Source: an uncultured Glaciecola sp. (lineage in GTDB: Bacteria > Pseudomonadota > Gammaproteobacteria > Enterobacterales > Alteromonadaceae). From it: 64,000 nt of DNA. Position 1 is the stretch's first letter, and every line of letters begins with the position of its first letter. Position numbers and translations under genes: made by a program. Shown here piece after piece: positions 61,677-64,000 of the stretch. Under the pieces are notes generated by a model that ran no database searches, was not told where the DNA came from, and saw only the letters and a program-made list of their open reading frames with translations. The stretch is from contig CAKZLI010000071.1 in NCBI GenBank assembly GCA_937125395.1, positions 18,299-82,298 on the forward strand. The letters are read 5' to 3'.

Positions 61677-61710
61677 AACCAGATACGATGATCCGACAAA
61701 GGCAATGACC

Positions 61711-62223
61711 ATGAGCGAACAGATCCCCATTAAAGTTATCCCAGCAGAACCTAAAGCTGGCAAAGCGATCCCCAAAAAAATTACGATCCAACCTGCTGAT
61801 GATTCAGGTGTTGATATTTATCCTGCTCGTTCACGAATCTATGTCCGTGCTGTTAAAGGCACCATCGAAAACGCGCGTCGTTTTTTTGGGTTTATATTCT
61901 TAGCGTTATTTGCGGTGATCCCATGGCTACAATATAACGGTCAACAAGCTATTTTGTTTGATATCCCTGAACAACGTTTTAACTTGTTTGCTATCACGTT
62001 ATGGCCTCAAGATCTGACAGTACTCGCCTATATATTTATTGTTGCCGCATTCGCGTTATTCTTTGTCACGACTTTTGCAGGGCGTGTTTGGTGCGGATTT
62101 ATGTGCCCGCAAACCACTTGGACTTATATGTATATTTGGCTTGAAGAAAAAATCGAAGGCAGTGCCAACAAACGTATCAAATTAGACCAACGACAGTTAG
62201 ATTTTGACAAATTTTGGCGCAAA
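61711..62223 (+). pseudogene. ccoG: CcoG cbb3-oxidase accessory protein, truncated at an artificial join
   Basis: The N-terminal ~171 residues of CcoG (RdxA/FixG family), a membrane protein with two 4Fe-4S clusters that helps assemble cbb3-type oxidase, probably in copper handling. Present are a cytoplasmic start, two membrane spans (FFGFIFLALFAVIPWL and LTVLAYIFIVAAFALFFVT) and the first cluster motif CGFMCPQTTWTYMYIW. The protein normally runs to about 470 residues with a second ferredoxin-like domain; here homology stops after LDFDKFWRK and nine alien residues precede a stop. I prefer the ATG at 61711 (AAAGG upstream) over 61705. The break is the first of several joins in the chimeric tail, so the real gene is probably intact in the organism. 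Confidence 0.85.
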
Positions 62224-62466
62224 CTTGGAATACCCAGAGGCAAGAGGCCTTACTAAAACAGAATCTACCACTGTGTTGAATTCATGAATCGGACGATTCA
62301 AACCCATCAAAGGATCAGTATTTTCCTTGGCATAGTTCTTCTCTGAGCCAAATAATGCAATCGACAAACAAGCGATCAGGGCAAGCGTCCTACAGGTGTT
62401 TCTGTTGGGGGAAACACTTAGCAAAGCGCTAAATCTGGAATTCAAATAGTGACTCTTCTCGGGCCT
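62206..62466 (-). pseudogene. mlaA: MlaA (VacJ) lipoprotein fragment, N-terminal half
   Basis: On the minus strand NTDPLMGLNRPIHEFNTVVD and LVRPLASGYSKFAPKFVK match the N-terminal region of MlaA, the outer-membrane lipoprotein that removes surface phospholipid in the Mla pathway. A hydrophobic stretch (LALIACLSIALFG) before it serves as signal. The fragment begins near 62466 without an evident start codon and ends at about 62206 where ccoG sequence takes over. The rest of MlaA (over 120 residues) is missing. It looks gammaproteobacterial but need not come from the same genome. Confidence 0.7.
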
Positions 62467-62666
62467 CACGACCATTCTCCTTTCTTGTTGGTAATGGTGC
62501 CAACAACCTGATTTAGGTTTACCACATGAACACTTTCCATGGCATCATCGGTTTGTGCGTTGATAACGATGGCCTTGAACTCACGATTTTCACCATTTTC
62601 GCTGTTTTCTTGGGAAAATCCGGAGAAACTAAAAACTATAAAAAGGAGGAGTAGGTTTTTTTTCAT
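62466..62666 (-). pseudogene. Bacteroidetes carboxypeptidase-regulatory-like protein, N-terminal fragment
   Basis: The minus-strand ATG at 62666 opens MKKNLLLLFIVFSFSGFSQ, a typical Flavobacteriia signal peptide, followed by FKAIVINAQTDDAMESVHVV and VGTITNKKGEWS, the start of a CarboxypepD_reg-like beta-sandwich domain. Proteins of this kind in Bacteroidetes are exported and often precede TonB-dependent or DUF5686-type regions. The sequence breaks off at about 62466. Such a gene is out of place in a gammaproteobacterial chromosome. Confidence 0.7.
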
Positions 62667-62679
62667 TAACATAAAATCC

Positions 62680-63625
62680 AATCTTAAAGATACTAAACAA
62701 AACAAAAAAATACGCCAAGCTATTAAAAAACAAAAACCCTGCCAGACCATTTTGCGCAATTACCGAAAAGATGGCTCCCTTTTCTATAACGAACTGACCA
62801 TTACGCCCGTTTTCAACGACTTGGGCAAAACGACTCATTTTATAGGTGTTCAAAACGATGTGACCGATCGAAAGAAAGACGAGGTCTTTAAAGGCCATAT
62901 CAGAAAAGTTTTGGAAATGGTCGCTCAACATAAGTCGCTTAAAATCGTCGGTATGGAAATTGTAAAAACGATGGAATCAAGTATCAAAGAAGGTATAGCC
63001 TCCATTCTTACATTGGATTCTAAAAAAAATACCCTGCATAAACTGGTAGCCCCGAATTTACCCGAATCGTTCAGCAATGCAATTGAGGGGATTGGCATCG
63101 GTCCAAAGGTAGGTTCATGTGGTACGGCGGCCCATCTTAAAAAAGCTATTATCGTAACCGATGTTGCAAAGGATCCCCGCTGGAAAGATTTTAAGGACCT
63201 TGCCCTAGAAAACGGACTTCGTGCCTGTTGGTCGTTTCCCGTTCTTTCTTCGGACAAAAAGGTTTTGGGCACTTTTGCCATCTATCATAAAACGATAAAA
63301 ACGCCCACCAAAGGTCAAAAAGAAATTATTGCCAACTTAGTGCAGCTTACCAGTATCGCCCTTGAGCAACACCACGGCCGAAAAGAATTGGAAAGAAGCC
63401 GCTGGCTATTACAAGACTACGCAAGCGAATTAGAACTTAAAGTCGCTGAACGTACCGACGAACTCAAGGTTACCGTAAAAAAACTGGTCGAGGCCAATCT
63501 AAACCTCGAAGATCAGGTTCTGGAAACCAAGGCTGCCGAGAACAAGGCTTTAGAGAGCCAAGCAATGTTTACTGCTATTTCAAGAAATTTTCCAAAGGGT
63601 GTTATCATAGTCTTCAATTCTGATT
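62680..63625 (+). pseudogene. PAS-GAF sensor kinase fragment (Bacteroidetes-like)
   Basis: An open frame with neither true start nor end. The first ~60 residues (KIRQAIKKQKPCQTILRNYR, DGSLFYNELTITPVF, THFIGVQNDVTDRK) are the second half of a PAS domain resembling LOV-type PAS, but the flavin-binding NCRFLQ half is absent. A GAF domain follows (EGIASILTLDSKKNTLHKL, GSCGTAAHLKKAIIVTDVAK, DPRW, SFPVLSSDKKVLGTFAIYHK), then a coiled-coil linker rich in Glu/Lys and the beginning of a second PAS domain (AMFTAISRNFPKGVIIVFNSD), where it breaks. The style is that of Flavobacteriia multi-sensor histidine kinases. Confidence 0.7.
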
Positions 63626-63631
63626 TTGGTA

Positions 63632-64000
63632 ATTGATGGCGTTGCATATGTTGATAATGTAAATAAAGGAGTAATATCAGCGATATTGTTAAATGGATCC
63701 AAAGATATATCAACAGTATTAGCTCCAATTGTTCCATCTACACCAGCAGCACTGAAAGTTAAAATATCTTTTTCCGTTGAAGCTACTAGATTATTTGTAA
63801 CATCTACTGTCCATGCTTGCGAAGTACCATCTTGAGAAATCACATCGTAAGTAAATGTAGAAGTAAAGTCGTTAATAGACACTCCACTTTCCTGCTGAAC
63901 ACCACCTACGTGAGGCGCTGAACCTGCTGAAGTAGTAAATGTTGGCGCTAGAGTTGTTAAGTCAGTAGCAAATCCAACCTCAATAGTAATCGTATGTGCT
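63632..64000 (-). pseudogene. Repeat-rich Bacteroidetes surface protein, internal fragment
   Basis: The minus strand is open from the window edge: AHTITIEVGFATDLTTLAPT, TTSAGSAPHVGGVQQESGVS, INDFTSTFTYDVISQDGTSQ, AWTVDVTNN, then KDILTFSAAGVDGTIGANTV and DISLDPFNNIADITPLFTLS. This is the end of one domain and the beginning of the next in a tandem repeat of about 90 residues that I associate with DUF5018-like beta-sandwich domains of secreted Bacteroidetes proteins. It is partial at both ends: it runs off the window and is cut by a join near 63625-63635. Confidence 0.6.

Follow-up and report, generated by a model that had tools for sequence, protein, structure and literature searches.

Foreign Gene Fragments Joined to a Broken ccoG at the End of a Glaciecola Draft-Genome Contig

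One end of a contig from an uncultured Glaciecola sp. consists of a row of partial genes, which raises the question of whether this DNA belongs to the chromosome of the organism or was joined to it in error. The window, i.e., the whole stretch of 64,000 nucleotides that was analyzed, corresponds to bases 18,299-82,298 of contig C71; this contig is 82,298 bp in length, and therefore the end of the window is also the end of the contig. The assembly is a draft genome of 3.26 Mb in 71 contigs.

A first-pass annotation had described five pieces at this end (ccoG, MlaA, carboxypeptidase-regulatory-like, PAS-GAF, and surface repeat), which follow each other on alternating strands and are each broken in mid-domain. 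All five pieces were recovered in that order and with those breaks (Table 1). The strand order was + - - + -, indicating alternation at most joins, but it is not strict because the MlaA and carboxypeptidase-regulatory-like pieces are both on the minus strand. The patchwork itself is real, but its start had been placed at 62,203, approximately 20 bases ahead of the last host base, 62,223. The terminal ~1.78 kb (62,224-64,000) is almost certainly a false extension of the draft-genome contig. It comprises four unrelated gene fragments on a broken host ccoG and is not the DNA of a single organism.

Table 1. Pieces and joins at the end of contig C71 (positions in the window)
Feature	Position	Strand	Basis
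Host ccoG (N-terminal ~173 codons), where the host sequence of C71 ends	61705..62223	+	Family model and relatives
Join ccoG/MlaA	~62,223	+/-	End of match to relatives
Foreign piece 1: start of MlaA-type lipoprotein gene, cut mid-domain	62224..62475	-	Pfam MlaA, E 1.6e-8
Join MlaA/carboxypeptidase-regulatory-like	~62,474-62,483	-/-	Start of many flavobacterial matches
Foreign piece 2 (Flavobacteriaceae member): carboxypeptidase-regulatory-like protein, initial ~70 codons with signal peptide and upstream region	62474..62720	-	DNA matches
Join carboxypeptidase-regulatory-like/PAS-GAF	~62,709-62,720	-/+	Best-defined join
Foreign piece 3 (Flavobacteriaceae member): PAS-GAF part of a sensor protein, truncated on both sides	62709..63628	+	DNA and amino acid identity, Pfam
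Join PAS-GAF/DUF5018-like repeat	~63,628	+/-	Common end in five relatives
Foreign piece 4: DUF5018-like surface-protein repeat, cut off by the contig end	63629..64000	-	Pfam DUF5018, E 1.8e-4, below cut-off

Host ccoG divided between two contigs

The ccoG sequence of C71 showed 74-80% DNA identity to nine genomes of the same genus, and the match to these relatives stopped at 62,223, in the middle of the gene. A family-model search of the same genome placed positions 3-121 of TIGR02745 (ccoG) in the window and 144-434 at bases 1,251-2,126 of contig C34, with the host ccoG sequence beginning near C34:1,258. On C34, the remainder of ccoG lies near the contig start and is followed by a gene that we take, from a reading of its sequence, to encode a YihE/SrkA-type kinase. 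Both halves of ccoG matched the same three closest relatives at approximately 86-91% amino acid identity. Each of the ten relatives examined, nine from this genus and one from the same family, had an unbroken ccoG with the kinase gene directly after it. Therefore, only about 80 bases, as measured against the three closest relatives, are missing between the two halves, and C71 and C34 are neighbors in the real chromosome. The true host continuation, comprising the remaining part of ccoG and the gene expected after it, is present elsewhere in the same assembly, in agreement with the earlier proposal of a misassembled contig end.

The same break carries a different foreign head on C34. The first ~1.2 kb of this contig is mostly GC-rich (0.56-0.59 in the first kilobase) and contains an ECF sigma factor of a Planctomycetaceae-specific subfamily (TIGR02984, E 6.5e-54, just below the curated cut-off). 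Along C34:1-1258 (locus L038, C34:1-20000), the planctomycete-type ECF sigma factor and a kinase-like fragment are followed by a short unrelated stretch and then by host ccoG. Both contig ends at the ccoG gap thus carry unrelated DNA of other bacteria, and no other contig of the assembly shares the C71 tail.

Affiliation of the tail pieces and their joins

The GC content of the pieces (0.36-0.45) was barely distinct from that of the host, and two of the four pieces scored as typical host sequence. A comparison of composition, which had been put forward as a means of telling the pieces from the host, was therefore dropped as evidence. The best matches of each piece, the other means put forward, were informative, and it was homology that decided the matter.

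The first-pass annotation had called the last three families typical of Bacteroidetes, in line with the matches: the carboxypeptidase-regulatory-like and PAS-GAF pieces belong to Flavobacteriaceae, and the repeat matched sequences in Bacteroidia. For most of its length, the carboxypeptidase-regulatory-like piece matched the DNA of Flavobacteriaceae genomes at 68-71%, and many of these matches began at 62,474-62,476 and ended at 62,715-62,724; the Pfam match to CarbopepD_reg_2 was weak and under the cut-off (E 0.028). The PAS-GAF piece, with Pfam matches to GAF_2 (E 2.6e-13) and PAS_9 (E 4.8e-11), showed 76.6% DNA and 76% amino acid identity to a Pricia sp. LH_M77 MAG (L140), and lower identity to Maribacter and other Flavobacteriaceae. 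These relatives were found using a shorter conserved stretch as the query; the whole piece as the query gave no match in genome contigs, and the search against plasmids gave distant matches only. Five relatives of this piece (L140, L141, L142, L144, and L147) all ceased matching exactly at 63,628, in the middle of the gene. In 5 of 295 Bacteroidia genomes, the DUF5018-like piece matched repeats in very large ORFs (up to 2,596 amino acids).

The MlaA piece is of the proteobacterial type, yet it is not derived from the host. The host's own MlaA gene was considered as its source and rejected, as contig C54 carries it intact and it shares only 39% identity with the piece over 41 residues. The donor was not found among 369 Gammaproteobacteria genomes, in which the best match was 44%.

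The joins were placed where independent relatives cease matching. At ~62,709-62,720, ATACGCCAAGC can be read as part of the terminator-like region that lies upstream of the flavobacterial gene and equally as the conserved I-R-x-A codons of the PAS piece. The bases ATTCTCCTTT at ~62,474-62,483 were found in several flavobacterial relatives, with the MlaA start codon at their edge, and the sequence at 62,206-62,223 is plausible as both ccoG and MlaA. Approximately 7-17 bases were compatible with both neighbors at three joins, judged on the sequences of relatives in place of those of the true donors. None of the genomes searched (30 relatives, 4 donor-like genomes, and 301 Flavobacteriaceae genomes) gave a match that crosses a join. 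Pieces that adjoin in the tail stem from different organisms and were neighbors in none of the searched genomes, among which the exact donors of the tail pieces were not found. In the two flavobacterial genomes in which both the carboxypeptidase-regulatory-like and the PAS-GAF piece were found (G031 and G033), these are located on separate contigs.

Other contig ends of the assembly

A composition scan of all contig ends flagged those that are GC-rich. For contigs of at least 20 kb, 10% of the ends had their first 500 bases within the lowest 1% of host-likeness, a share that includes some ordinary sequence of odd composition. The flagged GC-rich ends were not all counted as chimeras because several of them resemble prophage, repeat, or tRNA-bearing sequence.

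At the 3' end of C32, the 5' side of carA is broken and runs into unrelated sequence, after which comes a tsaB fragment on the opposite strand. At the 5' end of C64, carA breaks off at approximately residue 284, where it adjoins a fragment that matches CBM9_1 weakly. The two copies (L125 and L101, respectively) differ, with 79% DNA identity over 770 bases. The presence of two distinct broken carA copies in one assembly suggests a mixture of two related organisms in the bin.

Several duplicated or repetitive sequences were also observed. Two copies of rplB occur in the one genome, at the 3' end of C23 (L274) and at C65:58396-59199 (L273), and their regions continue alike at ~70% DNA identity; the C23 copy, at the contig end, opens with GC-rich sequence (0.57-0.64). 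One of the two copies may be contamination or a chimera. C40 (L077) and C41 (L078), each of 4,205 bases and carrying galT-like, LacI-like, and halogenase-like genes, are 93% identical and are probably strain variants of one locus that were kept apart. The small-contig pairs C11/C17 (L049/L055), C33/C36 (L071/L073), and C58/C69 (L095/L106) are 76-93% alike over much of their length and are perhaps related prophages, plasmids, or strain variants. A tandem repeat with a period of ~24 bases occupies positions ~1-230 of C27 (L065), at the very end of the contig.

The C71 tail is an ordinary sequencing or assembly error without biological meaning of its own. It is an artefact and not a real feature, and its arrangement gives no functional information, so that the use of this result is limited to quality control. 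Before gene content or gene transfer is analyzed, the contig ends of the assembly should be trimmed, because a naive scan would yield Bacteroidetes and Planctomycetes genes in a gammaproteobacterium, together with a broken ccoG and spurious fused genes.

Origin of the chimeric end

Host coverage may have failed or become ambiguous at the ccoG gap, upon which both contigs would have been prolonged into foreign DNA. The prolongation could have followed chimeric molecules that arose by template switching when the DNA was amplified or the library was made, or it could have run through short, false overlaps among reads that came at low coverage from other members of the community. The short matches at the joins fit template switching and false short assembler overlaps alike.

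There is about an even chance that no chimeric molecule existed and that the assembler, working with a small k, joined low-coverage reads of different organisms by short false overlaps at the end of the host contig. The bases that look shared at the joins are in line with this account, as are the several affected ends of the assembly and the near-duplicate contigs in the bin, such as C40/C41, which suggest a strain mixture. However, the best-defined join apparently shares only 11-17 bases, which is short for usual k-mer sizes, and the shared bases were inferred from relatives rather than from true donor sequences.

A physical chimera formed before sequencing, by strand switching at short matches during multiple displacement amplification (MDA) or PCR and then followed by the assembler, has slightly less than an even probability. 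The bases compatible with both neighbors and the strand changes at the joins are expected of such molecules, and in MDA chimeras 2-21 complementary bases were found at the junctions in >70% of cases (PMC1855051, Lasken and Stockwell 2007). On the other hand, MDA chimeras mostly arise as inversions inside a single template over distances of <10 kb, with joins between separate molecules being less common (PMC1855051); the overlaps at C71 were, moreover, judged from relatives.

A real insertion in a living strain, in which a multi-phylum composite lies inside ccoG with the C71 tail and C34 head as its two ends, would account for foreign DNA on both sides of the break but is extremely improbable, since its pieces come from several phyla and are each cut mid-gene, no integrase, transposase, or flanking repeat was seen in the tails, comparable breaks occur at other contig ends, and it would disrupt a gene that is intact in every relative examined. 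With regard to a horizontally acquired cluster or genomic island, every piece was truncated mid-gene, and no mobility gene was present among the ORFs and family matches of the tail.

The error that produced the C71 tail can be compared with two known kinds of artefact. Like the inter-species chimeric contigs of metagenome and amplified-DNA assemblies, C71 has unrelated pieces joined mid-gene at a contig end and adjoins a gap beyond which the true sequence continues on another contig; its four pieces in 1.8 kb make it more fragmented than one false join would, but it is otherwise alike. Its joins resemble those of MDA chimeras in their strand changes and in the short sequence that appears to fit both sides, whereas its pieces come from different organisms and those of MDA chimeras mostly come from neighboring places in one genome (PMC1855051).
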